In this document: piece by piece, positions 3,164 to 37,714 of the stretch
Layout of the letters: every line of letters begins with the position of its first letter
Numbering within the stretch: the first letter of the stretch is position 1
Origin: a virus
DNA length: 37,816 nucleotides
Direction: 5' to 3' (one strand)
IMG/VR virus record: IMGVR_UViG_3300030109_002799
Span: 1 to 37,816 of that record
The notes under the pieces: generated by a model
The model's input: only the letters and a program-made list of their open reading frames with translations
What the model was told of the DNA's origin: nothing
Database searches by the model: none
Program-made: the position numbers and the translations under genes

Positions 3164-3756
3164 TGCAAAGTTTATATGACTTTATAATAAAACCAATAGG
3201 TAAAAGATATAACAATACTAAAAAAATTGGTGATAAAGAATTAATTCTTAATACAGAAGTTTTTAATCACCATTATATAAATAGAGAAGCAAAAGTAATA
3301 TCAATACCAAATTTGGTTAAAACAAATATTAAACCAGGCGATACTGTTATTGTGCATCATAATGTTTTTAGACGTTGGCATGATATGAAGGGCGTTGAAC
3401 GTAACAGCAGGAGTTATATTAATGAAAATATGTATGCTGTAAGGCAAGATCAAATATTTTTATTTAAAAGAGATAACGTTTGGCAAGCGCCTAGTGAATA
3501 TTGTTTTATAAAGCCTATAAAATCTTATGATAATTTTAACGTTAAAAAAGAACAACCATTAGTTGGTATTTTAAAGTACAGTAATAAACACTTACCACCT
3601 GTTGGTAGTTTAGTAGGTTTTACGCCAATGACACCATATGAGTTTGTTATAGGTGAAGAAAGATTATATAGGATGTTAACACAATTTATTACAATTGAAT
3701 ATGAATACCAAGGACAAGAAGAAGAATATAATCCAAGCTGGGTACAGAGCAGTTGA
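3163..3756 (+). CDS. Putative GroES-like (co-chaperonin fold) protein
   Basis: 197 aa. The central part (about residues 50-120) reads like a co-chaperonin barrel: ISIPNLVKTNIKPGDTVIVH, then a charged loop HHNVFRRWHDMKG, a mobile-loop-like NSRSYINENM, then YAVRQDQIFLFKRDNVW. GroES and T4 gp31 share the pattern 'x-V-x-x-GD-x-V-I-h ... x-D-I-h-h', and phages use such proteins to help fold the capsid protein with host GroEL. It lies just upstream of the terminase and head genes, which fits. The extra C-terminal segment (about residues 130-197, with repeated P-x-G and GFTPMTPYEF) is not part of GroES. Sequence similarity is weak, so this is a hypothesis; otherwise hypothetical protein. The gene overlaps the start of the next by 56 bases. 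Confidence 0.4.
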   Translation: MQSLYDFIIKPIGKRYNNTKKIGDKELILNTEVFNHHYINREAKVISIPNLVKTNIKPGDTVIVHHNVFRRWHDMKGVERNSRSYINENMYAVRQDQIFLFKRDNVWQAPSEYCFIKPIKSYDNFNVKKEQPLVGILKYSNKHLPPVGSLVGFTPMTPYEFVIGEERLYRMLTQFITIEYEYQGQEEEYNPSWVQSS

Positions 3757-13997: not shown

Positions 13998-16900
13998 ATG
14001 CCAGAAATTAAAAGAGTATTTACGTCAGGTCGTATGAATAAAGACCTTGATGAAAGGTTGGTGCCTAACGGTGAATATAGAGATGCTTTAAATGTACAGC
14101 TAGCAACATCTGAAGGTTCAAACGTGGGTACACTGCAAAATGTCTTAGGTAATGAAAAAATTTCAAATATAAAAAGCGTATTAATATCTGGTATATCTGG
14201 AATAACAAGTTCTACAGAAATAAAAACAGTAGGTTCCGCTGTTGATGAAACAAACAATAAAGTATATTTTTTTATAACAGCTAATGATAGTGATAATTAT
14301 AGCGCTATTATAGAGTATGATCAAGATAATAATAGTGTATTACCTGTTATTGTAGACGTTGATTTAGAGGTATTAAACTTTAATAATGAGGCTTTTATTA
14401 CAGGTATAAATGTTTTTGACAGGTTTATATATTATACAGATAATGTAAAAGAGCCAAAACAAGTTGATATTGATAAATTTAAAAATGGAGCTAACACTAG
14501 CAACCCATATACTACCACAACACAGTATGACGGTAGAGATTTTAAAGAAGAAGATATAACTGTAATTAAAAAATCACCATTTAAAGCACCTCATATTACG
14601 CTACAAAGATCACTAAGAGATGGCCAAGTTGTAACAACGCACTACGATACAACACAAAAATTTAAACAAGCAAGTGAAGTGGATTTATCTTCCACAACGC
14701 AATTAGTGCCAGGCGATAAAGTTAGTATTAAATTTAACGGTAGACCAGATTACAGCGGTAATGATATTATTAAATTAACAGCAGGTGAACAAGATGAGCA
14801 CGTTATAAGAGTAAGGTTATTTAATGTATCTGCGCAAGCTGTTGATCATATCACTTTCAATACCAAAATAGTATCGATAACCGATGATATACTGGGTGAT
14901 TCTAACGGCATAACATGGCAGTGTATTTTAGAAGAGCCTGAGCCACTGTATGAGTTTAAATTTCCAAGATTTGCTTACAGGTGGAAATACGATAATAATC
15001 AATTTTCAGCATTATCACCATTTACAGACGTAGCATTTTTACCTGATGAAGTTGATGGTTTTAAATATGATTCTATAAAAGGTCATAACAAAGCAATGAC
15101 TAACAACGCTAGAAAAATAAAAATTAATAGCTTATTAACACCACCAAGTGATGTTGAAGAAGTTCAAATATTATATAAAGAGTCAAATAGTACTAATATA
15201 TATATACTATCAAAATTAACTAATGATGAAACATCTTTTGAAGTTACATCAGAACAAATACAAGGTTTATTAGATTCAAATCAAATTCTTAGAATATACG
15301 ACAACGTGCCGTTAAAAGCAAAGTCACAAGATGTGGTTGGTAATAGATTAGTTTACGGTAACTACACACAAAATTTTAATGTTCCACAAACTATAACAAT
15401 TGATTCTAATGTTTTTTCTAAAGAAATAAAAAGTCCTACACCGGCTCAATCATTAAAGTCACAAAGAAAGTATCAACTTGGTATTGTGTATGTAGATGAA
15501 TACGGAAGACAAACACCTGTGTTTACTAGCGATTCATCAAGTAAAGGTGACACGGTGGAGACATCAGAGGTAAAAGTTGATATATTTGGAGCTGAAACAG
15601 CAAATCAACTGCAAGTAAAAATTAATTCAACTCATCCTAGCTGGGCTAAGTATTTTAAATATTATGTTAAAGAAAATTCAAACGAATATTATAATTTAGC
15701 ATTAGACAGATATTATTATGGGGAAGATAACTTTTTATGGTTATCGTTTAACTCACCTGAAAGAAACAAAATAGAGATAGGTGATTATATTACATTAAAA
15801 AAAGCGCATGGTAAAGATATAGCGGCGGCAACTTTAGGTTTAGAGCCTGAAACACTAAAATATAAAATACTAGATATACAAACAATACCACCCACGTTTG
15901 TTAAAACAGAAAAGCAACTCTTTGGTTCTATAGAACATGTTATGTTTTCTACTGATGCTGATGGTTCATACGTGCCTGCTGAAGACATAAAGGTGTTTAG
16001 AATAGGTGGAGCTCATATACACCAAACAGCAAACATAGGTAATCTAAAAGATTTAGCAGGCGGTACTCAAGACGGTTTATATGTTAGAATATTTAATGAC
16101 AAGACTAGAGTCAGCACGAGAACATATGAAGTAGATAAAATAACGCTTATTGACAACATTGGTGGAAGTGGCGATGGAGCTTATGACAATGCTAACGATA
16201 GGTATGAGTTTTCATTAAAAGAACCTTTTGGTACTGACGCTAATTTTATTCCTTATTTAGCAACAGGATCATACTCTGCATTTGCAAGTGGTAATATTAC
16301 TGTTGAATTTTATCAATCAGTTGAAAAAGAAGAAAGGGATTTTGCTGGTAAGTTTTTTGTTAAAGTACAAAAAAATTCTAATTTAGAGTTTTCAAAGAAA
16401 ACAAACATTTCACAAAAAGATTTTGTTCAAGTTGCTCAAAAAAAATTAGTATTAATTGATGGTAGCGATTACTTAGCTGGCCGATCAAGTTGGGTTGTTA
16501 ACCAAGCTCAACGTAAAGCTAATTTTGGCTTAGATATTGGTGGTTTTAGATGGACAAAAAATGGCGGTACTGCTTTTATACAAACAAACGACTATACAAG
16601 CTTAAAGGGAAAAAGCGTTATATATATTAGACACTTTGATAGTCCTGATTTTTATCCAATAGCTGGTAGCGCTGGGGTTGCGTCCGCTAGAAGTGGTAAA
16701 TTATTACACGATAAACTAACTAGCTCTATAACAAAGTACCTACAGTTTAGCGACAACGATGATACAACGAGTGATGACACTGCGGCTGTTTACGAAATAA
16801 AAACAGTAAAGCACTTTGAAATATATAACTACTCAGGTGAAAACAAATATCGTAAGTTTTCTTCTAATAGAGGTTACATGTATGAGATTACACTTAAACA

Positions 16901-19900
16901 ACCTATAACTTGGGATCCAGTAACAGATGGTAGCATGGGTGTCAATAGCGCTGCTGGTGTTAGAATGCCAATAATATCTGATAGGTGGAACGACAACCAA
17001 ATATATTTAAATATACTAGAAGAAGATACATCTAACGAAGGTGAAAATGAAATTAATCCAGCAATATTTGAAACTGAACCAAAAGCACAAGACGTTGATT
17101 TAAACATATGGTATGAAGCAAGTTCAGCTTACCCTGTAACAGGTATACAAAATTATATACATGTTAATGACATTATAACGGGCTTTAGTTCCGTGCCCGC
17201 TGCCCAGAGAACCGTTACAGCTATAGGTATAGATGGTAATAACAATAGAATACAAGTTAGCGGTGCTTTTTCGGCAAGCGCGGATGATGTATTAACATTT
17301 ACAAATCCACAAAGTGGTGCAGCGGTAACAGCTACCGTAGCAAGTGTTGAAGCTGGAAACAAAGTAACATTAAATACAATTTTATCTAACCACAATCAAA
17401 CGCAAACGTTATCGTGGTTTAACTGCTTTGCTTTTGGTAACGGTGTTGAGTCTAATAGAATAAGAGATGATTTTAATGCTGTTGTGATAGATAAAGGAGC
17501 TAAAGTAAGTGCAGTATTATCAACGCCTTACGGCGAAGAAACATTAAAAAATGGTTTAATATATTCTGGTATATATAATTCTAATGCAAGTGTAAACGAG
17601 TTAAATCAATTCAACGCTGGTATAAAAATAACAAAAGATTTAAATCCAGAGTATGGATCTATACAAAAGCTACATACAAGAAACACAGACTTAATTGCCT
17701 TTTGTGAAGATAAAGTTATTAAAATATTAGCTAATAAAGATGCTTTATTTAACGCAGATGGTAATATAAATTTAACATCAACTAACAATGTTTTAGGTCA
17801 ATCAATACCTTTTGTTGGTGAATATGGTATTAGTAAAAATCCTGAAAGTTTTGCTAACCATGGTTATAGAGTTTATTTTGCAGATAAAAAACGTGGTGCT
17901 GTATTAAGGTTATCAATGGACGGTATAACAGAAATATCTGAAAAAGGTATGAGAGATTACTTTTTAGATAATACTAAAGCTGCGTCTTCTATAATAGGTA
18001 GTTACGATATAAGCACAGATTCATACAATATTACGCTAAATAATGATACTGTTAGTTTTACAGAACTTGTAAATGGCTGGGTTAGTAGAAAATCATTTAT
18101 ACCTGAAAGTGGTGTATCGTTAAATAATACTTATTACACATTTTATAATGGTGAAATATGGTCGCATACAAATGCATTAAGAAATAAATTTTACGATACC
18201 ACAAATAAATCTAGCGTTAACTTGATATTTAATGATGCACCATCATCAATAAAAAACTTTAAAACACTAAATTATGAGGGTAGTAAAGACTGGAAAGCAA
18301 CTGAAGTTACAACAGATCAACAATCAGGCAAAGTAACATATTTTAAAGATAAAGAAAATAAGTGGTTTAATTATATTAGAGGCACATCTACTAGCAAAGT
18401 AACAATTAACTTTGTAGATAACAATAATAGTAATTTTGAGGATGTTGAAGGTGTAGTGCTAAATAAAGCTGTAGATTCTACTGTTAATGACTCTGTAACT
18501 TTTACTGTTAAGCCAAAAAATGGTTTTAAAGTTATTGACACTTCTATTGCTTCAACCTTTGTATATCAAGGACCGGTAAGTAAAGTTACTAGCGTTACTA
18601 ACGTTACTAAAGTTAATGGTAATATACAATTTACAGTAAACTTAAGTGGTTTTACTATGCCATCGTCAGATGTCACTATAAACGTACCGTTTAATACTAG
18701 CAACACGCTTGTAGCTAAAACGTACAGTGTAAATGTAAATCGAGTAAACGTATTAACTAACGCCACGGGTTCTGTTAGTGGTGCGCTTACAACAAGTGGA
18801 TCTTATGGCACTACTGCTACGTTATTCACCAATACAATAACCCCTACTGCTAACAACACATTTTCAGTCCCACCAAGGGTTGATAGATCAGGCTTAGAAA
18901 GCCCTAGTAATTACGATATAACCAGAACAGGGCCAGACGGTAATGGTGCTTATGCTTTTGTTGTTAAATATAAATTTCCAAACAAAAATGTTTCTGGTGA
19001 TGTATTAACTTTTAATGCTACAGCAGGAAGTAGTATAATACAGACAACAAACAAAATATACAACGCTGTTATATTAAGTGACGGGGTTGAAGATGAATCA
19101 ACGCTTAACGCTGCTGGCGAAACTAGAACTGTAAGAATATACGGTGATGATGGCGCTCAAGTGTCTGTAAATGCATATAACAACGCTTCTTCTAGTACAA
19201 GTTTAATAGGTGGTGCTACTACTAAAACAATACAATCAGAAGGTTATGTTGACGTTAATATAGATTTTCCAGCTATTACGAATACAGCAAGAACATATTC
19301 AATTAAGTTACAAGAAATAAACTCTGGTGATTTTATCAACGAGTTTGATGCTTCACAAACAGGTGGTGATGGTATTGTTATATTTACATTAGATCAATAT
19401 GTAGATACAGTCGTAACTTTTGGTATTCATAATCCACCTGCGAACATGACCATAATAACAAGTGCGGATCCTTATTTTAGCACTTTTACATCTACTGGTC
19501 CTGGTAATACAGAAATAGATATACCATTAGATATATTGCTATCATTTAAGGTAACAGCAACGCAAGACATATCGTTAAAAGAATTTAATCCTTATTACCA
19601 ACACTTTACAAGAAAAGCAAATACAACAGCAACTACCACTGGTGGTTCTGTGACTAACACAACTTTCACTATAGCTAGTGCTAATGCTAACGTTTTACCA
19701 GGTATGGTTGTGACTGGAACTGGTATATCTGGTTATGTGTATGTGGAGTCAATATCAGGAACAACATTAGTATTATCAAAGTCAGTAACATTAAATAATG
19801 CAACTTTAACATTTAGTGGTGTTGATACAACAAAGCAGCAATTGGTATTAGAGGGTGGTAGCATTGTAAAATTTGGTAGATCTACTGTAACTATAGATAA

Positions 19901-20372
19901 TAGCGGTGGTACTAAATCAGCTATATTTACAATACCAGCTTATGTTGTAAAGTATGGCACAAGTAATGTAACTACTAATTTAGACTTAAACACAGTGTTT
20001 AACGTAGGTAGTGCTGTGACGACAAGAACTGTTACAGTTGCAGCAAGTTCAGCAGCTAACAATTTAATTAGCTCTATATCACTAAACTCAGGTAATACTG
20101 TTAATGTGGGCACGTCGGCTGGAACTGTTGTAACAGGAACTGGTACAATGACTGGTAATTTTAATGGCTTAACATCTAGTCAAATAGAATTAAGTTATGA
20201 TACTTTAGTAGGCTTTAATGACTCAACTAGTAGTAGTATTACCCCAACTTACTCTGGTAGTGGCTCATCATCCCAATCAGCTACATTTAACTGGTCAATG
20301 AGATTATCAAGTAACGTCGGAACTTCGACAAACTTGTCGTTTAAAGTACATGCAACCGATTCACCTGAATAA
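13998..20372 (+). CDS. Giant tail nozzle/stabilisation-type protein with adhesin-like C-terminus
   Basis: 2124 aa. The first 60 residues (PEIKRVFTSGRMNKDLDERL, then VPNGEYRDALNVQ and VGTLQNVLGN) are a signature I associate with P22 gp10-like tail nozzle proteins of marine podoviruses. Around residues 1220-1320 are propeller-like strands (LHTRNTDLIAFCEDKVIKIL, NHGYRVYFADKKRGAVLRLS). From about 1470 the composition changes to S/T/N/G-rich: an InlB/Ig-like segment with FTMPSSDVTINV near 1551, then a GMVVTGTGI-x-GYVYVESISG module near 1890 that is common in phage fibre shafts. The likely role is the tail tip channel fused to surface-exposed adhesin modules. The fusion makes it far longer than P22 gp10. 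No peptidase or glycosidase motif was seen. The nozzle call is moderately firm; the adhesin role is inferred. Confidence 0.65.
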   Translation: MPEIKRVFTSGRMNKDLDERLVPNGEYRDALNVQLATSEGSNVGTLQNVLGNEKISNIKSVLISGISGITSSTEIKTVGSAVDETNNKVYFFITANDSDNYSAIIEYDQDNNSVLPVIVDVDLEVLNFNNEAFITGINVFDRFIYYTDNVKEPKQVDIDKFKNGANTSNPYTTTTQYDGRDFKEEDITVIKKSPFKAPHITLQRSLRDGQVVTTHYDTTQKFKQASEVDLSSTTQLVPGDKVSIKFNGRPDYSGNDIIKLTAGEQDEHVIRVRLFNVSAQAVDHITFNTKIVSITDDILGDSNGITWQCILEEPEPLYEFKFPRFAYRWKYDNNQFSALSPFTDVAFLPDEVDGFKYDSIKGHNKAMTNNARKIKINSLLTPPSDVEEVQILYKESNSTNIYILSKLTNDETSFEVTSEQIQGLLDSNQILRIYDNVPLKAKSQDVVGNRLVYGNYTQNFNVPQTITIDSNVFSKEIKSPTPAQSLKSQRKYQLGIVYVDEYGRQTPVFTSDSSSKGDTVETSEVKVDIFGAETANQLQVKINSTHPSWAKYFKYYVKENSNEYYNLALDRYYYGEDNFLWLSFNSPERNKIEIGDYITLKKAHGKDIAAATLGLEPETLKYKILDIQTIPPTFVKTEKQLFGSIEHVMFSTDADGSYVPAEDIKVFRIGGAHIHQTANIGNLKDLAGGTQDGLYVRIFNDKTRVSTRTYEVDKITLIDNIGGSGDGAYDNANDRYEFSLKEPFGTDANFIPYLATGSYSAFASGNITVEFYQSVEKEERDFAGKFFVKVQKNSNLEFSKKTNISQKDFVQVAQKKLVLIDGSDYLAGRSSWVVNQAQRKANFGLDIGGFRWTKNGGTAFIQTNDYTSLKGKSVIYIRHFDSPDFYPIAGSAGVASARSGKLLHDKLTSSITKYLQFSDNDDTTSDDTAAVYEIKTVKHFEIYNYSGENKYRKFSSNRGYMYEITLKQPITWDPVTDGSMGVNSAAGVRMPIISDRWNDNQIYLNILEEDTSNEGENEINPAIFETEPKAQDVDLNIWYEASSAYPVTGIQNYIHVNDIITGFSSVPAAQRTVTAIGIDGNNNRIQVSGAFSASADDVLTFTNPQSGAAVTATVASVEAGNKVTLNTILSNHNQTQTLSWFNCFAFGNGVESNRIRDDFNAVVIDKGAKVSAVLSTPYGEETLKNGLIYSGIYNSNASVNELNQFNAGIKITKDLNPEYGSIQKLHTRNTDLIAFCEDKVIKILANKDALFNADGNINLTSTNNVLGQSIPFVGEYGISKNPESFANHGYRVYFADKKRGAVLRLSMDGITEISEKGMRDYFLDNTKAASSIIGSYDISTDSYNITLNNDTVSFTELVNGWVSRKSFIPESGVSLNNTYYTFYNGEIWSHTNALRNKFYDTTNKSSVNLIFNDAPSSIKNFKTLNYEGSKDWKATEVTTDQQSGKVTYFKDKENKWFNYIRGTSTSKVTINFVDNNNSNFEDVEGVVLNKAVDSTVNDSVTFTVKPKNGFKVIDTSIASTFVYQGPVSKVTSVTNVTKVNGNIQFTVNLSGFTMPSSDVTINVPFNTSNTLVAKTYSVNVNRVNVLTNATGSVSGALTTSGSYGTTATLFTNTITPTANNTFSVPPRVDRSGLESPSNYDITRTGPDGNGAYAFVVKYKFPNKNVSGDVLTFNATAGSSIIQTTNKIYNAVILSDGVEDESTLNAAGETRTVRIYGDDGAQVSVNAYNNASSSTSLIGGATTKTIQSEGYVDVNIDFPAITNTARTYSIKLQEINSGDFINEFDASQTGGDGIVIFTLDQYVDTVVTFGIHNPPANMTIITSADPYFSTFTSTGPGNTEIDIPLDILLSFKVTATQDISLKEFNPYYQHFTRKANTTATTTGGSVTNTTFTIASANANVLPGMVVTGTGISGYVYVESISGTTLVLSKSVTLNNATLTFSGVDTTKQQLVLEGGSIVKFGRSTVTIDNSGGTKSAIFTIPAYVVKYGTSNVTTNLDLNTVFNVGSAVTTRTVTVAASSAANNLISSISLNSGNTVNVGTSAGTVVTGTGTMTGNFNGLTSSQIELSYDTLVGFNDSTSSSITPTYSGSGSSSQSATFNWSMRLSSNVGTSTNLSFKVHATDSPE

Positions 20373-20382
20373 ATAAAATAAT

Positions 20383-20865
20383 ATGGCAACATTAACATTA
20401 GCATTTGACGTAGACATAAACACTTCATTAACAGCAAAAGCTGCTAATAAATCTGCGCATGATATTGTATATTTTACAACGTTAACTAACGATAATCCAC
20501 CTAAAGTACAAACAATACGCGAATTAGGTAAGTGTATAGCAAAAAATACTACAAACAAAACTATAGATGTTGAGGTAGCTGTTACTGGTGGAGGCGCAGC
20601 TATAGTTAACTCTATAACTAATTTTGACGCAAAAGAAATATTAACACAAGGTATTGGAAAAATAAAATCAGGTGGTGTTACTAATTCAAGTAGTATTAGT
20701 GGTAGCATACCATCTGCTGCTGATTATGTGTTTTTTCAAAAAAATAAAGAAATAGGTACTTCAGGTGTAATAGGTTATTACGCTGAAGTTAAAATGGAAC
20801 ACAACTCAACTAGTGAAGTTGAATTATTTGCTGTTAGTTCTGAAATATTTGAATCTAGCAAATAA
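20383..20865 (+). CDS. Small beta-rich structural-type protein of unknown function
   Basis: 160 aa, start MATLTLAFDVDINTSLTAKA, 10 bases after the nozzle stop. Sequence alternates short beta strands and Ser/Thr/Gly loops (KSGGVTNSSSISGSIPSA), with a final strand EVELFAVSSEIFESSK. No signal peptide, membrane segment or cysteine pair; one Cys only (GKCIAKNT). Compositionally it matches the C-terminal half of the nozzle protein upstream. A minor virion protein, for example a nozzle plug, fibre adaptor or chaperone, would fit. I do not recognise the family. Confidence 0.6.
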   Translation: MATLTLAFDVDINTSLTAKAANKSAHDIVYFTTLTNDNPPKVQTIRELGKCIAKNTTNKTIDVEVAVTGGGAAIVNSITNFDAKEILTQGIGKIKSGGVTNSSSISGSIPSAADYVFFQKNKEIGTSGVIGYYAEVKMEHNSTSEVELFAVSSEIFESSK

Positions 20866-20904
20866 CGTGTGATTATATATGTATAAAAATTAAATTAATA
20901 AAAT

Positions 20905-21843
20905 ATGGCATTACCTTTATTAGGAGCAAATTTAGCAATGCAAGCAGGAAGCCAAATACTACAGGGTATTGGTGGTATAGTTAGTGGTATTGCAGGTAGT
21001 AGACAAAGAAGACGTGAGCAAGCTGACGCAGCAAGATCATACACTGACGCTATGGCTAGATTTGAGAATATAGACACATCTAATCCGTATGCAAATATTA
21101 CAAACCCATACGCAAATCTTACGGTAAATCAACAACAAGCAGATTTCATGGCACAACAAACGCAGCAAGCATCAGCTAACACGATGTCACAATTAAGTGC
21201 TGCTGCTGGTGGTTCTGGTATAGCTTCTTTAGCACAAGCAATGGCTAATCAACAAACAAGAAATTTACAACAAGCTTCTGCTACTATAGGAGCTCAAGAG
21301 GCTGCTAATCAAAGGTTAACAGCTCAAGGCGACATGCAAACACAAATGGCTAGAGCACAAGGTGATTATTTATCACAAAGGATGCAAGCTAATCAAGCTA
21401 CAACACAACTTGCTATGGCACAAAGAAGAAAAGCAGCTGCTGATCAAGCTAGACAGCAAGCGACTGGTGCTTTAGTAGGTGGTATAGGTAAAATAGCAGG
21501 AGGTGTTATGTCTGGATTTACAGCTGATAAAGCATTAAAAGGTATAGGTATGGATGGTTTATTTGGTGGAGCTAACAGCGGAACAAACCAAACTACTAAC
21601 CCAGCTGGCACTATGGCAAACAACGCTGAAGCGGCACCAGTTGTTACATCTAATTTTAACCCTCAAGTAACAGGTAGTCAAAGTTACATAGATAATGTAA
21701 ATGCTTTTATGGAAGGCTATCAAACACCATCTGAGGCAGCTGGATTTAACGTAAATGTATTCCAAGACAAAACGTTTGTTCAAAACGCTAATGGTACTTT
21801 CAAATGGAATCAAGTAACGCAAACATACGAAAAAATAGACTAA
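20905..21843 (+). CDS. Putative internal virion/ejection protein (T7 gp14-like size and character)
   Basis: 312 aa. The N-terminus is a hydrophobic Gly-rich helix (GANLAMQAGSQILQGIGGIV, SGIAGSRQRRRE) of the type seen in short ejection proteins that insert in the outer membrane. The middle (about 70-190) is a long Ala/Gln-rich amphipathic helix region (QQADFMAQQTQQASANTMSQ; ANQQTRNLQQASATIGAQEA; RAQGDYLSQRMQANQATTQL). A second Gly-rich hydrophobic stretch (GALVGGIGKIAGGVMSGF) follows. It is the first of three consecutive genes of increasing size, echoing the T7 gp14-gp15-gp16 order. The role would be forming a channel for DNA entry. Assignment rests on composition and order, not detectable homology. 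Confidence 0.6.
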   Translation: MALPLLGANLAMQAGSQILQGIGGIVSGIAGSRQRRREQADAARSYTDAMARFENIDTSNPYANITNPYANLTVNQQQADFMAQQTQQASANTMSQLSAAAGGSGIASLAQAMANQQTRNLQQASATIGAQEAANQRLTAQGDMQTQMARAQGDYLSQRMQANQATTQLAMAQRRKAAADQARQQATGALVGGIGKIAGGVMSGFTADKALKGIGMDGLFGGANSGTNQTTNPAGTMANNAEAAPVVTSNFNPQVTGSQSYIDNVNAFMEGYQTPSEAAGFNVNVFQDKTFVQNANGTFKWNQVTQTYEKID

Positions 21844-24040: not shown

Positions 24041-27000
24041 ATGGAACCAAATAATAAAAAATATAATATAGAGGATTTGTTTAATCCTAACTTTACTGTA
24101 AATGATCCTAACGCCGGTGAATCTGCATGGGAGAGAGAGTTACGTGAGACTGGGATAAACTTTTCCAATGCACTTAGCAATATACTACCTGATTTAAATA
24201 AAGCTTGGCAAGCAACAACAGCAACTAGTGTTGACATGCTTAAGAGCGTAGGCGGTGAAGACTTTGCTGATTTTTTAGTTGGTGATTACGATGAGTTCAT
24301 GGAGCGTAAGTATAAAAAAATACAAGAGCTTGACTTAGCTAGAAAAGAAACTGGTGGTATAGTAAAAGGTATACGAGCAGGTGGTGATTTTTCAGATATT
24401 GCAGGTGGTATGTTTAACGCTGTCACAAGTTTAGTTACTACAATGGCACCAGCTGTATTAACAAGAGGGTTATCATTAGTTCCTCAAATAGCAGCTCCTA
24501 TGGTTGTTGATTATAACACCACAAAAGCAAAAACAAAATATAAAGACTCTGACGATCCAATAAGAGATTTAATAGAAGATGATGAGGTAGACTTTGCTGT
24601 TCCAGCAACACTCGGTTTGTTTGCAGCAAGCATGGAGCGTATAGGTATAAAAGGTATTACAAGTTATATAGCCAAACAATCATTTAAAGGCAAAGGCGCG
24701 GTTATGTTGTTAAACACCGCTTCAAGAGAAGGTTTAACAGAATCAGGACAATTTTTCACAGAACAACTTAATACAAATTTAGCACAAGGCATGAAGTCTG
24801 ATGAGGCTGCATGGAAAGCTTTTCAATCAATATCAAGTGATGAGGGTATTGAAAGTTTCCTACAAGGTTTCGTAGGTGGTGCTGCGGTTGGAGGTGTTAG
24901 TAGAAAGGTATCAAGAGCTTTGCGTAATGACGACCAAGGTTCTAAAATGGTAATGAATAGCATTAGATCGTTAGCCGCGTTAAATGATAAAAAGAAAAAT
25001 GAAAAAAGCACTGCAGGTAGAAAAATACTAGATGATGATATAGCTAAAATAGAAGCTGGAATAAAAAACTACATGAATGATAATCAAAAAGTAGCTGAGT
25101 TGCTTGGAGAAGATCAGAAGCAGCGTTTAGAGAAGTTAATAGATGATAAGGATGCTTTACGCTCAAGAGTAAAAGAATTACAACAGGAGTTGCAAGATGG
25201 CAAAATAACACAACAAGCTTATAACGGTTATTTATCTAGTGAAAGTAAAAAGTACACAAAAATAAATGAAGCTATAGCAGCAGTTAAAAACGAAGTTGAT
25301 ATAAATATAGCAGGAACACAAAGAAAAGCTGTAGAAGAAGCTGCTGAAATAGCAGGTAACGAAGTTAAGGATATAGACAAAAATCAAAAAGAAGAATTAT
25401 TAAAGAAAAATGGCTTTACAGGGCAAAAGCTAAAAGACGCTAAAGATACAGTGGCTGGTGTTTATAATCCTAATGATGGTATTTTATATTTAGACATGGA
25501 AACAGCATTAGACGTTGGTGAGATAAATGTTGCTGGCCATGAATTACTACACCCTATATTTAACAAGTTGATAGGTGATCCTGCTAAGCAGGGTAAAATA
25601 GTTGAAGATTTTAAAAAGCAACTAACGCAAGCAGAGCTTGATACAATGGAGCAGGAGATGTTAGAAAGAGGTTATACACTTGAAAATGGTAAATACAACA
25701 CTGAGTATGTAAACGTATTTTCTGATGGTATAACTAAAGGCTTTGTAGGTTTTAATGATAGTGTGTTTAGTAAAGTTGGTGATGTTATTACAGGTTTATT
25801 TAAAAACGTTGGTTTTAAAAACATATCATTTGATTCTGGTAGAGGCGTTTATAACTTTTTAAAAGCATATCACGAAGGTTTAGATACTGGTAAGTTTAAT
25901 CAAGATGTATTAACGTTTATTGAAAAAACAAAAGACATAAAAGATCCATTAAGTACAGTGCAGGAGTCTCAAGCGCCTAACCCATATAATGAGTTTACAG
26001 CTGAAGAATTAATTGAAATTAAAAAATCGCCACAAACAACAGAGAGTCAAATGAGATTAGCTGACGATGCTTTACTAAATCAATTTGATTTACTAGCATT
26101 AAAAGCATTAAAGTATGATACAAGAAAAGGTGACTTTAAAAGGGAAGATGTTTTATCTGCAGCTAGAGCAGAACTACCAGGTATCGTAGATAGATTTGAT
26201 CCTGCTACAGCCAAGTTTTCTACGTTTGTAACAAACACAATGGCACCTAAGCAGCAGCAAATTTATGAAGAAGTAAAATCACTACAGAGACCAGGTGAAA
26301 GTCTAGATGCTCCAGAAGCAAGGCAAGTAGCTGTAGAAGAAACTACACAAGAAGAAACAACAACTAAACCAATAACGAAGTTAAGTCCATTAAGTTTTCA
26401 AAAGGTTATAGATAAAGATTTTGAAGGTGACGTTAATATTAAGCAGGAGCAATTACCTACAATTTCACATAAAGAAGTTGCTGAACAGTTTGGTGGTAAA
26501 GTTTCATCAAAAATATTTAATATACCAGAAGCTAAAATAACAGATCCAAAGAAAAACTTAACTTACGCTAAAAAAATAACAGACGGTATACCTGAAAACT
26601 CTGAAGCAGGTAACATACAACAGTTCTACGATATATCAAATAACTTAGAACAATTAATAAAAATACTACCACCAGAAAATGTTAGTTCACAGTCAGCTAA
26701 TATAAATAAACAAGGTGAAATTATTGAAGTGTCAAGAGAAGTATATGGTAGATCATTAGGCGTAAGTAATAGAGTATTAAATTATTTTTATGAAAACGTA
26801 CCTGGTAAACGATCTAAAGGTTTATCATCACAAGTACAATTAAAAAAATTAAAAGAAAAGTTTATCAACCCAACAGCTGAAGTTATTGCTGAAGCTAAAA
26901 AAGAATTAGGCATAACACCTAAAGGTCAATTAAATAAATATAATAGAACAATAGGTCAAATGTTAAAAGGCTTAGCTAAATTACAAGGTGAATTAACAGC

Positions 27001-30000
27001 TAACACTATTGCTAGAGAACAAATATCAAAAATAGAAACTAAAACTGTAAAGCCTAAAGCACAAATATTAGCTGATGTTAAAGCTGGAGCAGCAGACATA
27101 CAATTAAGTGAAAGTGTAAAAGGCTTTAGCGCAACAGATATTCAGCAGTTAGGTTTAATAGCTAGAAGTGCAACAGATTTAGGTGTAGCAAAAGAGCTTG
27201 AAATAAACAAGATAACAGTAAATGCTGATAACATAGGTGCGGTACAACTTAATTTAATTAACTTTGTAAAACAAGGTAAAATACCATCGTGGGTTATTAA
27301 ATTAAGTCAACTTGCTAATTTTGGTGCTAAGTATAGAAAAGACAAAAATGGTAAAAAATATTATCTTTTAAAAAATGGAAAAGAGGTATTAAAAGATTCA
27401 CCCGCCTACAAAAAAGCTTTAGTTAACGGTGATTTGTTGCCAGAAAAAGGTAGTTTGTTTTATAGCAGTGTGTATGATCCAAATTATTTAAGGTTAGTAG
27501 AAGTAGCAAAAGAAAATGATAAAATTAACCCTAAGCCAAAAAGAGTTACTTTGCCAAAAGGTGGTAAAATAAACAAGCAATTTATTAACGCTAATAAAGC
27601 ACAAAATAAAATTAACATGGATGCTTTACAGTCTTTTGCTGAAATACTCGAAACTGCTGTTCACAAACATGGGATGCCAATAGAGTATGCATATGCGCTT
27701 ATATCAAACGCTTACTCATCAACGCGTGGGTTGATAAAAATAGCTGCTCCTTTTAAGTATATATCACAAGATATATCACAGGGTTACACGGAAGAGCATA
27801 ACCCACCAGCCTCTACAATAGGTGGTGCCATTGCTTTTATGATTAAAAACAAAAAAGTAAAACAAGGTTTTCCATTTGTAAGAAGTAATTATTATCAAAC
27901 GGTAATAGCTGATAAAGATGACACCACTTTAAACGCTACGCACAAACAAACATCACCTGTACCCATATTGGTTGAGTCAGCTACTAGGTTTACCGACGCT
28001 GGAATTGACATTAATACTATAATAAACGCTGAAACTGGCAAGTCTTTAGCTGAAGAATTAAGCGTAAACGTTCCTAGCGGTACAAAAATGACACCAGAGC
28101 TTATTCAACAGACAAAAAATCATTTAATAAAAAAATTAAATAAAGAGATATCAAACAAAGAAATTAAACAAGAAATAAAAGCTGAGTTAAAAATAAACGA
28201 TAATATACTACAAGCAAGTCAAGTTAATAGAGATAGTTTTAATTTCTTAACAGAAAACATGACGGTTAAAGAGCAGTTAGATATGATGAAAACATATGAT
28301 AAAGCTCTTGATGTAGCTAGAGACCTTAACGCGCCTGAAAAAGGTATAAGTGTTTTTGATTTTGATGAAACATTAGCTACAACTAAAAGTAATGTTATAG
28401 TTAAGTTTACAGACGGTACGGAGCAAACAATTAATGCAGCGGAGTTTGCAGAACAAGCAGCAGAATTAGAGCAACAAGGTGCTACTTTTGATTTTAGTGA
28501 ATTTAACCAAGTTATTGACGGTAAAAAAGGACCATTGTTTGATCTTGCTATGAGAAGACAAGACAAATTTACTAGTAAAGATATTTTTATATTAACAGCT
28601 AGACCACAGGAAGCGGCTGTTGCTATATCAGCATTTTTAAAAGGCATGGGTTTAAATATACCTGTAGATAATATAGTTGGCTTAGCTGATGGTAGACCGG
28701 AAGCAAAAGCAAACTGGATAGTTGGTAAAGCAGCTGAAGGTTATAATAACTTTTATTTTGCAGATGATGCTTATAAAAATGTAAAAGTAGTTCAAGACGT
28801 TTTAAACGTTATTGATGTTAAAGGTAAAGTACAACAAGCTAAACTACAATTTAGCAAAAGTGTTGATAAACAATTTAATACGATATTGCAAGAAAAAACA
28901 GGGGTAAAACAAGAAGCTAAGTTTTCTGACGCCGCAGCAAAGTCAAGAGGTATGAAATCTTTACCTTGGTACAAAAGATGGTTTATACCACCATCAGCTG
29001 AAGATTTTGTAGGTTTACTATATCACTTTACGCCAAAAGGTAAAAAAGGAGAGCAAGCTATGGAGTTTTTTAAGAAAACATTAATTGATCCATTTGCTAG
29101 AGGTTTTAAAAATATAAATGCCGCTAAGCAGGTTTTAGCTAATGACTTTGACGCTTTACAAAAAGCATATCCTAATATAAAAAAATTATACAACAAAGAT
29201 ACTGGTTATAATAATTTTACAAATGAGCAGGCTATAAGAGTATACTTGTGGGATAAAAATGGTATTGAAATACCAGGTATATCAAAAAGAGATTTAAAAG
29301 CATTAGCAAAAATAGTAGAAGATAATAAAGATATGAAGGCTTTTGCTAGCAAGCTAGGTGAGATATCTAAAATGCCTGATGGTTATATTAAACCTACAGA
29401 AAGTTGGACAGCTGGTACCATAGGATCTGACATTGTAAGTATAAGTACAAGAGAAAATAGAGCTACACATTTAAAAGAATTTTTAGACAACAAAGAAGTT
29501 ATATTTTCTAAAGACAACTTAAATAAAATTGAAGCAATATACGGTACTGATTTTAGATCTTCACTAGAAGATATGTTATGGAGGATGGAAAATGGTAGCA
29601 ATAGAAGAACTGGTCAAAGTAAATTAGTCAACGGATGGTTTGATTGGGTTAACAACTCTGTTGGTGCTATAATGTTCTTTAACTTTAGATCAGCTGTGCT
29701 ACAGACTATATCAGCCGTTAACTTTGTTAACTGGAGTGATAACAACCCATTAAAAGCAGGTGCGGCTTTAGCTAACATACCACAATATACAAAAGACTTT
29801 GCTTATATATTTAATTCAGACATGTTAAAACAAAGAAGAGCAGGATTACAAACTGATGTTAACGCATCAGAACTTGCTGATTCTATAGCAAATAAAAAAG
29901 ACAAGGTAAATGCAACAATAGCATTTTTACTTAAAAAAGGATTTTTACCTACGCAGATGGCTGATAGTTTTGCAATTGCTTCAGGTGGTGCGACGTTTTA

Positions 30001-30904
30001 TAGAAACAGAATTAACACATATAAAAAACAAGGTTTTACAGGTAAAGAAGCTGAATCAAAAGCGTTTAAAGATTTTCAAGAAATATCTGAAGTATCACAG
30101 CAGTCAAGTAGACCAGATCTTATATCAGAACAACAAGCTGGACCATTAGGTAGATTAATATTAGCTTTTCAAAATACACCTATGCAGTACACAAGGTTAA
30201 TGAAAAAAGCAGCGGTAGATTTAAAAAATGGTAGAGGTGATACTAAAACCAACATATCTAAGATAATATACTACGGTGCTGTACAAAATATAATATTTAC
30301 AGCAATGCAAAATGCTATGTTTGGTTTATTATTTGAAGATGAAGAAGAGAAAAATGATGATAGATATGATAAGAAAAAAGCTAGGATGTTGAATAGCATG
30401 TCTGATACTATATTAAGAGGTATCGGTGTTTATGGTGCTGCTATATCCACAATAAAAAACGTCGCGTTAAAATTTATACAAGAAGAAGGCGATGGTAGAC
30501 CTAATCACACTTATACTCTTATAGAAGCAATTAATTTATCACCACCTATTGGTAGTAAAGCTAGAAAAATATATACAGCAACGCAAACTTACACATTTAA
30601 TAAAGATGAAATAAAAGAAAAAGGTTTTGCTCTAGATAGTCCAGCATATGGCGCTGTTGGTAATGTTATATCAGCTGGTACTAACATACCGACAGACAGG
30701 GTGTATAATATAGTTAACAATGCACAAGCTGCTCTTGATAAAAACAATAAAGCGTGGCAGAGAATAGCTGTTGCCTTAGGTTGGAATACATGGGATGTTG
30801 GCATAGAACGTAAAAAGTTTGAAAAGGATAAAAAAGAAATAACTAAATCACAAATCATACGACAAAGGAGACTAAATAGACTAAATAATAAAAAAAATAA
30901 GTAA
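24041..30904 (+). CDS. Giant polyvalent virion protein with HExxH, sigma-like and HAD phosphatase segments
   Basis: 2287 aa, following 6 bases after the previous stop; third and largest of the ejection-type genes. Order of parts: a helical N-terminus with a hydrophobic stretch around 120-155 (SLVTTMAPAVLTRGLSLVPQ); coiled-coil about 330-440; HELLH at 500-504 in NVAGHELLHPIFNKL, matching an HExxH zinc-peptidase motif; a segment 674-745 resembling sigma-70 region 2, with IVDRFDPATAKFSTFV and a following GESLDAPEARQ; a complete HAD motif set, DFDET (D1440, D1442), LTARP (T1519) and FADD (D1575, D1576); then long helical regions with a hydrophobic stretch IIYYGAVQNIIFTAMQNAMF near the C-terminus. 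The pattern matches the polyvalent-protein concept: multi-domain proteins injected with phage DNA. The HAD call is firm. Peptidase activity and sigma relation are inferences, and no second zinc ligand was confirmed. Confidence 0.72.
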   Translation: MEPNNKKYNIEDLFNPNFTVNDPNAGESAWERELRETGINFSNALSNILPDLNKAWQATTATSVDMLKSVGGEDFADFLVGDYDEFMERKYKKIQELDLARKETGGIVKGIRAGGDFSDIAGGMFNAVTSLVTTMAPAVLTRGLSLVPQIAAPMVVDYNTTKAKTKYKDSDDPIRDLIEDDEVDFAVPATLGLFAASMERIGIKGITSYIAKQSFKGKGAVMLLNTASREGLTESGQFFTEQLNTNLAQGMKSDEAAWKAFQSISSDEGIESFLQGFVGGAAVGGVSRKVSRALRNDDQGSKMVMNSIRSLAALNDKKKNEKSTAGRKILDDDIAKIEAGIKNYMNDNQKVAELLGEDQKQRLEKLIDDKDALRSRVKELQQELQDGKITQQAYNGYLSSESKKYTKINEAIAAVKNEVDINIAGTQRKAVEEAAEIAGNEVKDIDKNQKEELLKKNGFTGQKLKDAKDTVAGVYNPNDGILYLDMETALDVGEINVAGHELLHPIFNKLIGDPAKQGKIVEDFKKQLTQAELDTMEQEMLERGYTLENGKYNTEYVNVFSDGITKGFVGFNDSVFSKVGDVITGLFKNVGFKNISFDSGRGVYNFLKAYHEGLDTGKFNQDVLTFIEKTKDIKDPLSTVQESQAPNPYNEFTAEELIEIKKSPQTTESQMRLADDALLNQFDLLALKALKYDTRKGDFKREDVLSAARAELPGIVDRFDPATAKFSTFVTNTMAPKQQQIYEEVKSLQRPGESLDAPEARQVAVEETTQEETTTKPITKLSPLSFQKVIDKDFEGDVNIKQEQLPTISHKEVAEQFGGKVSSKIFNIPEAKITDPKKNLTYAKKITDGIPENSEAGNIQQFYDISNNLEQLIKILPPENVSSQSANINKQGEIIEVSREVYGRSLGVSNRVLNYFYENVPGKRSKGLSSQVQLKKLKEKFINPTAEVIAEAKKELGITPKGQLNKYNRTIGQMLKGLAKLQGELTANTIAREQISKIETKTVKPKAQILADVKAGAADIQLSESVKGFSATDIQQLGLIARSATDLGVAKELEINKITVNADNIGAVQLNLINFVKQGKIPSWVIKLSQLANFGAKYRKDKNGKKYYLLKNGKEVLKDSPAYKKALVNGDLLPEKGSLFYSSVYDPNYLRLVEVAKENDKINPKPKRVTLPKGGKINKQFINANKAQNKINMDALQSFAEILETAVHKHGMPIEYAYALISNAYSSTRGLIKIAAPFKYISQDISQGYTEEHNPPASTIGGAIAFMIKNKKVKQGFPFVRSNYYQTVIADKDDTTLNATHKQTSPVPILVESATRFTDAGIDINTIINAETGKSLAEELSVNVPSGTKMTPELIQQTKNHLIKKLNKEISNKEIKQEIKAELKINDNILQASQVNRDSFNFLTENMTVKEQLDMMKTYDKALDVARDLNAPEKGISVFDFDETLATTKSNVIVKFTDGTEQTINAAEFAEQAAELEQQGATFDFSEFNQVIDGKKGPLFDLAMRRQDKFTSKDIFILTARPQEAAVAISAFLKGMGLNIPVDNIVGLADGRPEAKANWIVGKAAEGYNNFYFADDAYKNVKVVQDVLNVIDVKGKVQQAKLQFSKSVDKQFNTILQEKTGVKQEAKFSDAAAKSRGMKSLPWYKRWFIPPSAEDFVGLLYHFTPKGKKGEQAMEFFKKTLIDPFARGFKNINAAKQVLANDFDALQKAYPNIKKLYNKDTGYNNFTNEQAIRVYLWDKNGIEIPGISKRDLKALAKIVEDNKDMKAFASKLGEISKMPDGYIKPTESWTAGTIGSDIVSISTRENRATHLKEFLDNKEVIFSKDNLNKIEAIYGTDFRSSLEDMLWRMENGSNRRTGQSKLVNGWFDWVNNSVGAIMFFNFRSAVLQTISAVNFVNWSDNNPLKAGAALANIPQYTKDFAYIFNSDMLKQRRAGLQTDVNASELADSIANKKDKVNATIAFLLKKGFLPTQMADSFAIASGGATFYRNRINTYKKQGFTGKEAESKAFKDFQEISEVSQQSSRPDLISEQQAGPLGRLILAFQNTPMQYTRLMKKAAVDLKNGRGDTKTNISKIIYYGAVQNIIFTAMQNAMFGLLFEDEEEKNDDRYDKKKARMLNSMSDTILRGIGVYGAAISTIKNVALKFIQEEGDGRPNHTYTLIEAINLSPPIGSKARKIYTATQTYTFNKDEIKEKGFALDSPAYGAVGNVISAGTNIPTDRVYNIVNNAQAALDKNNKAWQRIAVALGWNTWDVGIERKKFEKDKKEITKSQIIRQRRLNRLNNKKNK

Positions 30905-34872: not shown

Positions 34873-36597
34873 CTAACCATCACAACTCAAACAATCTTCA
34901 TTCATAGCGGCAGCTGCAATATCACCACGCAGCACTGATTCTGTCCGCATATAATACAAAGTTTTTATTCCACCCTTCCAAGCTTCTAAGTGTACCTTGT
35001 TAAGGAACTTAGGATCAACTTCAGAAGGAAAAGCTAGATTTAAACTAACTGATTGATCAACGTATTGTTGTCTTATACCAGCTTGTTTTACTAAATCTAA
35101 CTGATTTATTTCTTTAAAAGTTTTAAACACCTCTTTAGCTGGAACACTATCCTGTGGACCAAGCATAACTTTATCTAATTCTTTTATACCTTGTACGGAT
35201 CCTCCGTCTTCAAGTATCTTATTCCAAATCTTATCATTATCAAGTTTATGTTCTTTTAACAAAGCTACTAGCGTGGGGTTTTTTCTTATAAAAGTACCCT
35301 TAGCACTTTGTTCCGTAAATACGTTAGCAGCCCAAGGCTCAATTCCAGGGCTGATATTGCCAGCAAGTTTACTGTTAGAAACAGTAGGAGCAATAGCGCG
35401 AAGGTGAGTATTCCTAAACCCAGTGCCAACACACCACAGCGGTTCGCCAAACTCCTCAGCAAGCGCCATACTTGCTCTTTCGCTCTCAATTTTGATTTGA
35501 CTAAATATTCTTCTTGTTTCATATTGTGCTAATAATCCTTCGAAAGGTAAACCTTTCTGTTGTAAATATGTATGCCAGCCTAAAACTCCTAAGCCTAAAG
35601 CTCTGCCTTTTTCAGCGGATCTTACAGCATTAGAAAAGCCCTGCATACCTTTTGATTTTTGTATAAATTCTTCTAATACACCATCTAAAAATAATATACT
35701 ATCATAAATTAAGTTGGAGTTTTTCCACTCTCTATATTTAGCTAGATTTAAACTAGATAAACAACAAACAAAACTATGATTTTCATCTGTGTGTAGTACT
35801 ATCTCGCTACATATGTTAGTCATAAAAACTTTTAAAGCATTGTCTTTATAAGCCGCAGGATTATTTTTATTTACATTACCCTTAAACATTATATAAGGCT
35901 CTCCTGTTGCTTTACGTTTCTGAAGTAATTTACCCCATTTACGTCTTGCAACTTTATCACCGTCTCTAAGTTTACGCATAAACTTATCACCAATTATAGT
36001 ACATTGATGTAAGTTTAATGACTGTCTATTGACATCACCTTTAGGTTCTCTTATTTCTAACCAGTCTTCAAAGTCTTCATGATCAATATTTAAATTAACC
36101 GATGCAGCGCCTCTTCTTACAGCACCTTGGTTTGTAGCTAGTATAGTTGAGTCATATATCTTACAAAAAGGTACAACACCATCTGATGTGCCGTTTTGGG
36201 ATATAGTAGCTCCAGCTGGTCTAACTTGATTTAAACCTATACCAACACCTCCACCGTGTTTAGCCAATAACATCATTTCTAGGTTTTTCTTACCTATATC
36301 ATAAATGCTATCAGCAACATCAATACCAAAACAACTTATTGGTAATCCACGATCTGTACCTGTGTTAGATAAAACTGGAGAGGCTAGACAAAGCCAGCCC
36401 TTCCAGATATAGTCAAAGAATTTATCAGCCATTTCAGGCTTATTTAATCTTCTAGCAACCGCAGCCGCCACTCGTTTATACGCATCTTTAGGCGTCTCAC
36501 CAGGTAGTAAATAACCACCAGTGATAGTTTTTTTATATACGTCAGCGTCCGCCCACTCTGGGTAGTCCTGACCTTTTATCCATCTATTGCTCCACAT
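34873..36597 (-). CDS. nrdA: Class I ribonucleotide reductase large (alpha) subunit, no ATP cone
   Basis: 574 aa. It reduces ribonucleoside diphosphates to deoxy forms using a radical supplied by NrdB. Visible catalytic set: C89 (LPISCFGI, partner of the active-site disulphide), N261/C263/E265 in NICSEI, C278 in VCCLSSLNL, Y548-Y549 in KTLYYMRT (radical relay), and a C-terminal shuttle pair C569/C572 (CLSC) instead of the more spaced pair of E. coli. The protein begins just before the catalytic barrel and has no N-terminal ATP-cone, so classical dATP inhibition through that domain is absent; E. coli NrdA has about 760 residues. It starts 5 bases after the nrdB stop, so both form one operon. 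Assignment is firm. Confidence 0.95.
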   Translation of the reverse strand: MWSNRWIKGQDYPEWADADVYKKTITGGYLLPGETPKDAYKRVAAAVARRLNKPEMADKFFDYIWKGWLCLASPVLSNTGTDRGLPISCFGIDVADSIYDIGKKNLEMMLLAKHGGGVGIGLNQVRPAGATISQNGTSDGVVPFCKIYDSTILATNQGAVRRGAASVNLNIDHEDFEDWLEIREPKGDVNRQSLNLHQCTIIGDKFMRKLRDGDKVARRKWGKLLQKRKATGEPYIMFKGNVNKNNPAAYKDNALKVFMTNICSEIVLHTDENHSFVCCLSSLNLAKYREWKNSNLIYDSILFLDGVLEEFIQKSKGMQGFSNAVRSAEKGRALGLGVLGWHTYLQQKGLPFEGLLAQYETRRIFSQIKIESERASMALAEEFGEPLWCVGTGFRNTHLRAIAPTVSNSKLAGNISPGIEPWAANVFTEQSAKGTFIRKNPTLVALLKEHKLDNDKIWNKILEDGGSVQGIKELDKVMLGPQDSVPAKEVFKTFKEINQLDLVKQAGIRQQYVDQSVSLNLAFPSEVDPKFLNKVHLEAWKGGIKTLYYMRTESVLRGDIAAAAMNEDCLSCDG

Positions 36598-36602
36598 ATT
36601 AT

Positions 36603-37562
36603 TTACCAGATATTTTCGAAATCTTCTCCCTCATTTGCTTTACTGTAGTCGGTCGGCCGAATAGCAAAAAAATCGGTATGAGTATGACCCCCAGTAAGAT
36701 GATAGAACCAATCGAGGTTCTTAGCTTTTTCTTCGTCATATTTGAAGATTCCGGTGTATCCGAGTTCCACCAGTTTTTCATTCGCTCTTTTTCTAATAAA
36801 TTGTTTAAGATCATCTGCCTTTAAGTTTTCAAGGTCTCCCATCTCAAACATCTTGTCTATATATTTCTCTTCTAATTCAATCATAACCTCTGCGGCTTCT
36901 AAGATGTGTGGTTTACATGCTTTACGTAGCATATCTTTTTCTTCGCACATATGATTAAATAATCTGCAACCCATCTTGCTATGTAGTGATTCATCACGTA
37001 CTGACCATTTCATTTGTTGGCCAACACCTTTTAATAAGTTTCTCATTTGGAAACTATATAATACTGCAAAAGCAGAATATAATGAAACACCCTCAGCAAA
37101 TGCGCTAAATACCGCTAATGATTTAGCGATACCAACAGGATCGGTACCATCATAACTAACTAAGTTATCAAATCTATCAGCTGTAGCTGGCTCATGTAAA
37201 AACGCTTCAAAGTCTTCAAGACCTAACGTTTCATTTAAGTAACTATATGCTACCGCATGTATAGTTTCTTGTGAACCAAACATCATTGCCATTTGTTGTA
37301 TTTCGTGTTTAGGAAACCATCCTACAACTTTTTGTGTCCAGTAATCACTTACTGCACATTCAGTCTGAGCAAAGCCTAGTAGTATATTACCTACTAAATT
37401 TTTTTCTGACTTTGTTAATTTTTCATTCCAGTCTTTCACATCACCAGACATTGGTATTTCTGTGTGTAACCAGAAAGCTTGAGCTTGTTTTAACCAACCC
37501 TCAGTATAATACTCAGGGTACTCAAAAGGTTTGTATGCTATTCTATTGTCAAATAATCCCAT
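36603..37562 (-). CDS. nrdB: Class I ribonucleotide reductase small (beta) subunit
   Basis: 319 aa from the ATG at 37562 (MGLFDNRIAYKPFEYPE). An in-frame extension to 37589 overlaps the upstream mini-gene and is rejected. It holds the metal site and radical: E68 (AQTECAV), E99 and H102 (QETIH), Y106 as the radical tyrosine position, E157 (FAEGV), E191 and H194 (RDESLH). The first ligand is Glu rather than the Asp found in E. coli NrdB. With Tyr present, this is a tyrosyl-radical type enzyme rather than the Phe-containing class Ic. C-terminus NEGEDFENIW provides the tail that docks into NrdA. Upstream gene ends 2 bases before the start. Confidence 0.95.
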   Translation of the reverse strand: MGLFDNRIAYKPFEYPEYYTEGWLKQAQAFWLHTEIPMSGDVKDWNEKLTKSEKNLVGNILLGFAQTECAVSDYWTQKVVGWFPKHEIQQMAMMFGSQETIHAVAYSYLNETLGLEDFEAFLHEPATADRFDNLVSYDGTDPVGIAKSLAVFSAFAEGVSLYSAFAVLYSFQMRNLLKGVGQQMKWSVRDESLHSKMGCRLFNHMCEEKDMLRKACKPHILEAAEVMIELEEKYIDKMFEMGDLENLKADDLKQFIRKRANEKLVELGYTGIFKYDEEKAKNLDWFYHLTGGHTHTDFFAIRPTDYSKANEGEDFENIW

Positions 37563-37564
37563 AT

Positions 37565-37714
37565 TTATTCGTAGTATAAAGATAAACAAATATCAAATAA
37601 AAATATATATAACACGTGGTCTATTTTGTTTTCTTGTTGGTCTATATATTGTCTATAACCAAAAATAATTCCAGTGAACAAACCAAAGCTTAATTCCCAT
37701 TTTATTAATTTCAT
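37565..37714 (-). CDS. 49-aa membrane mini-protein at the head of nrdB
   Basis: ATG at 37714 on the minus strand overlaps the stop of the preceding gene (ATGA), and its stop lies 2 bases before the nrdB start, so it is tightly embedded in the operon. Product MKLIKWELSFGLFTGIIFGY then RQYIDQQENKIDHVLYIFLF and DICLSLYYE: two hydrophobic segments (about 8-20 and 34-46) with a charged middle. No known family. It resembles the small membrane peptides of the lysis region only in style. Confidence 0.55.
   Translation of the reverse strand: MKLIKWELSFGLFTGIIFGYRQYIDQQENKIDHVLYIFLFDICLSLYYE

Follow-up and report, generated by a model that had tools for sequence, protein, structure and literature searches.

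A probable diverged sigma-70 region 2 homologue embedded in a giant polyvalent-type protein of an uncultured phage lineage

The virion-delivered takeover devices known so far are either polymerases, as in phage N4, the crAss phages and P23-45, or modifiers of the host polymerase, as in T4. The T4 modifier Alt is a delivered enzyme that acts on the host polymerase (PMC5512222). In the Thermus phage P23-45, an RNA polymerase is fused to the tail tape, such that a transcription domain resides within a giant virion protein (PMC10770324), and in crAss001 the giant gp47, gp49 and gp50, encoded beside the muzzle gene, constitute the virion RNA polymerase cargo (PMC10172136). A further class, the polyvalent proteins of phages and conjugative elements, comprises very large, multidomain proteins thought to be delivered with the DNA, to jump-start transcription or to counter host defence (Iyer et al. 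2017, PMC5512222).

Here, we analyse a 37,816-base virus record (hereafter, the window) with a 2287-aa protein that resembles the polyvalent proteins in its size, its multidomain organisation and, judged by motif, a putative zincin, and that probably contains a diverged version of sigma-70 region 2 (PF04542). The likeness to region 2 lies in a predicted three-helix fold, an FDP-x-x-x-KFST-aromatic string in register and a homologue scoring above the curated cut-off; the window copy differs in being embedded in a giant protein, in having no detected region 4 and in the loss of the clamp glutamine. Likewise, the parallel with P23-45 is one of fusion to a giant protein, with a catalytic polymerase there and a sigma-2-like domain here. 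We found no description of this domain in the literature, and the word ‘sigma’ is absent from the body text of PMC5512222, PMC10172136 and PMC7886860; a sigma-2 domain would extend the polyvalent repertoire as laid out in the first of these.

The giant protein, its gene cassette and its relatives

The window bears a podovirus-like structural cassette in the order terminase, portal, several virion proteins, a muzzle-related protein of 2124 aa, genes for proteins of 160, 312 and 728 aa and, finally, the 2287-aa ORF. The terminase matches phrog_6681 and the portal phrog_6547, both of which we take to be of crAss origin. A gene for a GroES-like co-chaperonin (phrog_13932; 3163-3756, + strand) stands directly before the terminase, and genes for the large and small subunits of ribonucleotide reductase (34873-37589, - strand) lie on the strand opposite to the cassette. 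The features on which the following sections draw are:

13998..20372, + strand: muzzle-related virion protein, 2124 aa (PF25729, 7.4e-11; phrog_14478, 2.5e-133), in the same cassette, upstream of the giant ORF
24041..30904, + strand: giant multidomain protein of polyvalent type, 2287 aa; final large gene in the structural cassette, with collinear relatives
25538..25552, + strand: HELLH (HExxH) motif of a putative zincin metallopeptidase, assigned by motif, in a protein with no Pfam peptidase-family match
26009..26332, + strand: sigma region 2-like domain, residues 657-764 with a helical core at 668-749 (profile, model, fold search and tiling)
28352..28372, + strand: VFDFDET motif, residues 1438-1444, of a putative HAD-type phosphatase, assigned by motif
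28718..30811, + strand: conserved C-terminal region, residues 1560-2257; query for gathering the giant-protein family

No family in Pfam or PHROG matches the giant protein with a convincing score. The HAD-phosphatase-like motifs VFDFDET and TARP (28352-28606, + strand) were spotted by eye and have no Pfam match.

The muzzle-related protein is matched by crAss001 gp44 (blastp E 1.5e-5). The same muzzle homology is common to the window, Gundel, phi18:3 and Elemovirus, and hence the muzzle, portal and terminase do not place the window phage inside Crassvirales. The position of the giant gene, which closes the cassette after a muzzle homologue, is paralleled by that of gp123 of the Cellulophaga phage phi18:3, which closes its own cassette and is annotated as a virion protein from MS/MS, and by that of crAss001 gp47 (2341 aa), which holds the same place in the gene order and was detected in virions by mass spectrometry (PMC10172136). 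From this shared position, we infer that the giant protein, which belongs to a marine crAss-related phage, is probably carried in the virus particle. Gundel gp074 has a match to the window protein over 1877-2143; phi18:3 gp123 and crAss001 gp47 have no detectable homology to it. More generally, crAss001 differs in that its gp45-gp50 have no detectable homology to the giant family, and the six proteins searched among its gp44-gp50 gave no sigma-2 match.

A search with the C-terminal region yielded 557 relatives that were confirmed; the 80 best of these, the window and 13 sequences collected before make up a set of 94 giant proteins, in which L013 and L168 are one contig. The segment itself had been located in 5, then 16, then 17 IMG/VR loci in successive searches, many of them on the same contigs. 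An HMM iterated at E 1e-3 finds the domain in 49/94 giants (the first sub-family), and a second seed group, typified by L124, gives 37 matches, 22 of them new, for a total of 71/94; the two sub-families match each other with an hhalign P of 1.2e-13. The remaining 23 giants have no domain match, several of them being interrupted by contig ends, and in some of the 23 (L127, L160, L185 and L177) similar strings are visible by eye only. The nearest full-length relative of the window protein (L123, 54.9%) has no recognised copy: around its residues 650-800 both flanks are conserved, and the place of the domain is taken by unrelated or highly diverged sequence, possibly through a domain swap. The domain was likewise not found in named phages (a single chance match at E 8), had no detectable copy in five isolate giants, including Gundel gp074 and phi18:3 gp123, and was confirmed in 0/19 pattern matches from bacterial genomes. 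In all 49 first-group members examined, the domain is preceded by an HExxH motif at a distance of 157-360 residues. Since 85/94 giants overall have it, this motif is a feature of the architecture and not of the domain.

Relationship of the segment to sigma-70 region 2

The three-helix domain occupies residues ~657-749 of the giant ORF. The original prediction had likened residues 674-745 to sigma region 2 within positions 26060-26330, which correspond to residues 674-764 of the ORF at 24041-30904 (+ strand), and all three strings that it quoted occur in that ORF: LLNQFDLLALKALKYDTRKG at residues 678-697, IVDRFDPATAKFSTFV, and GESLDAPEARQ at residues 752-762. The parts of the domain are:

26042..26107, + strand: helix 1, residues 668-689, in the place of sigma region 1.2/2.1 (AlphaFold2 model)
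26114..26134, + strand: YDTRKGD loop, invariant in an 11-sequence close-family alignment
26141..26194, + strand: helix 2, residues 701-718, in two pieces in the model, in the place of sigma region 2.2; clamp-contact glutamine lost
26183..26230, + strand: IVDRFDPATAKFSTFV, residues 715-730, in the place of regions 2.2-2.3
26216..26287, + strand: helix 3, residues 726-749, in the place of regions 2.3-2.4 (AlphaFold2 model)
26294..26329, + strand: GESLDAPEARQV tail with a D..xA..V motif, 3' of the domain, disordered in the model

Residues 677-744 form an island of conservation, with 87% identity to L001 and 68-76% to L012, L013 and L031, as against 37-41% for the whole protein; the more distant L188 shows no clear island (40% in the segment versus 36% over the whole protein).

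Comparison with the Sigma70_r2 profile, which the original prediction had named as its check, gave a divided answer. The window segment matches 0 Pfam families at E 10, and a PF04542 search of the window record likewise returns nothing at E 10; in contrast, the homologous segment of L126 passes the PF04542 cut-off (27.7 versus 24 bits, E 2.4e-6, profile positions 1-67 of 71), and does so again, with 28.8 bits, in a 2406-aa frame. A single blastp HSP (192-2256 to 343-2386, 37.7%) shows L126 to be collinear with the window protein, and the alignment takes in the segment together with the adjoining EAR-x-VA-x-EET flank. PF04542 is the commonest family among the 47 first-group members scanned (4/47 at E 10), and two further giant frames match it weakly (G050 with 12.7 bits and G085 with 13.5 bits). 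In the second sub-family, none of the 21 members scanned, out of the 22 new ones, matches it. The VG15 family (PF25310) appears below threshold in the segments of L015, L016 and L017, that is, in 3/47 members, with a best value of 2.1e-4, and in single proteins of another scan.

For profile-profile comparison, 36 sigma-2 sequences were assembled into a reference alignment, six of them E. coli sigmas and the other 30 loci of four genomes. Against it, hhalign gives P 3.4e-4 (probability 38%) for the first group, in the register of regions 2.2-2.3, P 1.6e-4 (probability 50%) for the second and, with no sharper match, P 3.4e-4 for the merged sub-families, values that refer to one pre-named family and would not be significant by themselves over all of Pfam. 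The phages' own sigma, as a positive control, gives P 2.4e-10. When the window protein is cut into 40 tiles, the two that cover the domain take the top two places (P 2.2e-4 and 9.9e-4), and the next stands at 0.021. A sigma-2 HMM scores a non-significant 2.1 bits at the place of the domain in the window. None of the PDB sequence searches, with the window segment, L124, L126 or the A2, A3, A6 and A7 profiles, is significant: phmmer with the single window segment has the sigma factor 8x6g_H as its sole hit (E 0.043); A6 places the sigma 8b3z_A first of three (E 0.15); a sigma comes second of three with A2, second of four with L124 (0.62) and ninth of ten with A3, behind Kelch proteins at the top; the four hits of A7 and the one hit of L126 are not sigmas.

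An AlphaFold2 model from four sequences had a mean pLDDT of 53; with 47 sequences the mean pLDDT is 78.5 and the pTM 0.66, with 91/145 residues at pLDDT >=90. In the latter model, the main helices fall at window residues 668-689, 701-709, 712-718 and 726-749, and model residues 109-145 (window 753-789) form a disordered tail with pLDDT <50. The original prediction would have fallen had there been neither a Sigma70_r2 match nor a helix bundle of the region 2 type; a homologue scores above the PF04542 cut-off, and the window segment as modelled matches sigma domain 2. In a Foldseek search of the PDB, 48 of the 50 matches listed are RNA polymerase or sigma entries, judged by their titles, and the other two are 3les, with the best match at E 0.063 and none at E 0.001; isolated sigma-2 domains such as 8b3z_C reach a target-normalised TM-score of 0.63. 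With VIA-align, all 50 matches listed are RNA polymerase or sigma entries, the best with Z 7.8 and 8x6g_H with Z 7.7 (89 aligned residues, 3.2 A, 20% identity). Because Z values below 13 can be common among helical bundles, what gives this result its weight is that the rows are so uniformly of one kind and that they agree with the sequence comparisons. A fold search among viral models has many named sigma factors near the top, mixed with other proteins.

Could these similarities be a coincidence, with an unrelated three-helix bundle happening to carry an FDP-x-KFST string? The failure of the window segment by itself in Pfam, the weak and mixed PDB profile hits and the competition from VG15 in three members would fit such a reading, which we nevertheless judge very improbable in the face of L126 above the curated cut-off, the tiling control and the sigma-dominated fold search. 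Thus, the predicted likeness is borne out by phmmer, hhalign, tiling, the Pfam match of L126 and the fold search: we class the window segment, itself below the family threshold, as a diverged sigma-2 homologue rather than as a sigma factor.

The same cannot be said of the SLD-x-P tail, which had also been read as a sigma feature: it falls in the part of the model with pLDDT <50, and its motif is moderately conserved (D756 in 17/36, A760 in 18/36 and V763 in 19/36, the remainder being different or gaps). Its assignment as a sigma finger was set aside as unproven: the VIA-align rows that reach E. coli sigma70 residue ~510 do cover the tail, but this part of the model has low confidence.

Residues retained and lost, and the likely role of the domain

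In sigma70, D403, Q406 and E407 of region 2.2 contact the beta-prime clamp, and Y430 is an aromatic residue of region 2.3. Among 36 non-redundant first-group members, the Y430 place is always aromatic (F16 Y11 W9), residue 719 is aromatic in 32/36, P721 is kept in 26/36 and residue 737 is basic in 34/36; the window itself keeps F719, F726, S727, T728 and an aromatic 729. The Q406 place, however, has a glutamine in 0/36 (S12 E9 D7 A6 G1 P1) and the D403 place an aspartate in 10/36, as against 31/36 and 34/36 in 36 real sigmas, where Y430 is aromatic in 36/36; the window has D, S and A at the D403, Q406 and E407 places. In other words, the hydrophobic core and region 2.3 persist and the usual beta-prime contact does not, which argues against ordinary sigma binding. 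A complete sigma factor in the giant protein was rejected too, since no region 4 tile was convincing (best P 0.003, probability 10%, compared with P 1.4e-6 for the phage sigma control).

A scan with PF00623 found a cellular-type RNA polymerase subunit in 0/24 related records, with 14/14 controls positive, though diverged crAss-type polymerases could escape it; a PF00940 scan, also 0/24, was uninformative since its controls were likewise unmatched. As there are many free-standing sigmas in these phages and no cellular-type subunit in the 24 records, they seem to depend on the host enzyme for transcription. The crAss-type RNA polymerases are extremely divergent (PMC7886860).

These observations bear on a reading in which the ejected domain binds the host beta-prime clamp as a sigma would and diverts transcription to the phage's early promoters. 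The sigma-2 fold and the retained F719, F726, S727, T728 and aromatic 729 would suit it, as would host-dependent transcription with abundant sigmas; yet the glutamine and aspartate that make the clamp contact are largely gone in comparison with real sigmas, the giant protein has no convincing sigma-4 match, and a divergent crAss-type polymerase outside the reach of PF00623 would allow for a phage polymerase instead. We therefore regard clamp binding as unlikely. The original prediction, that a virion protein brings a sigma-like domain into the host and redirects its RNA polymerase, accordingly finds partial support, with a sigma-2 domain present and virion carriage read from synteny; redirection is possible but goes beyond the evidence, with the loss of the clamp contacts speaking against it.

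A different alternative holds that the sigma-2 fold is kept purely for structure, as a spacer or an element of self-assembly in the giant protein, with neither a nucleic acid nor a polymerase as partner. Conservation falls mostly on core-like positions (aromatic 719, hydrophobic 726, aromatic 729 and hydrophobic 730) with drifting partner-contact residues, and the isolate relatives Gundel gp074 and phi18:3 gp123 dispense with a detectable copy, both as would be expected of a spacer. The strong conservation in the close family, the invariant and charged YDTRKGD loop and the basic residue 737 in 34/36 members instead suggest a role for the surface, and we hold the spacer reading to be somewhat doubtful, if less so than sigma-like clamp binding.

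Hence, we favour, with reasonable though incomplete confidence, a repurposed docking module: a diverged sigma-70 region 2 homologue in a giant polyvalent-type protein that is probably packaged and ejected with the DNA, the module acting at entry. This role appears the likeliest because the core and the region 2.3 aromatic are kept and the beta-prime-clamp residues of region 2.2 are lost. Under this proposal, the giant protein would probably be packaged and ejected together with the phage DNA, its HExxH domain may cut the giant polypeptide, and the sigma-2 domain would dock the protein or DNA onto the host on entry, most likely as a nucleic acid- or RNA polymerase-docking piece rather than as a complete promoter-selecting sigma; the free-standing sigma of the related phages would presumably serve later transcription. 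A bolder version, which we offer as a long shot, is that a marine crAss-related lineage injects its sigma-2 module within a self-processing giant protein and thereby, at the very outset of infection and before its own free-standing sigma is made, seizes the RNA polymerase of the host or the melted promoter DNA of the phage, in effect a virion-borne appropriator of the sigma role.

The presence of such a segment in a protein probably carried by the particle suggests, short of proof, delivery of a transcription-related module at infection. A sigma-2 homologue in 71/94 giants of an uncultured lineage would add a sigma-like domain to the polyvalent proteins and would be a candidate for early transcription start in phages with no recognised virion polymerase. 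Should the domain bind no polymerase, it would be a clear case of the sigma-2 fold being reused for another job.

Free-standing sigma factors of the related phages

An ordinary free-standing sigma of about 255 aa is encoded at a minimum of 80 loci (>=80) in related records, and in three scans it exceeds the PF04542 cut-off in 13/50, 4/33 and 1/12 records; none was detected in the window record, which is a fragment. This protein, too, is a sigma-2 homologue. It differs from the embedded domain in retaining the D/Q motif, with the clamp glutamine kept in 78/80, and region 4, and it is not a detectable source of the domain: derivation of the latter from the phages' own sigma was rejected, with an hhalign probability of 0.4% and no significant hit of the phage-sigma HMM in the giants. 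One related record of 129,537 bases (IMGVR_UViG_3300047157_000162) has two free-standing sigmas, at 20865-21095 and 83144-83374, which are 80% identical and ~62 kb apart, either through a duplication or because the assembly merged two related genomes.
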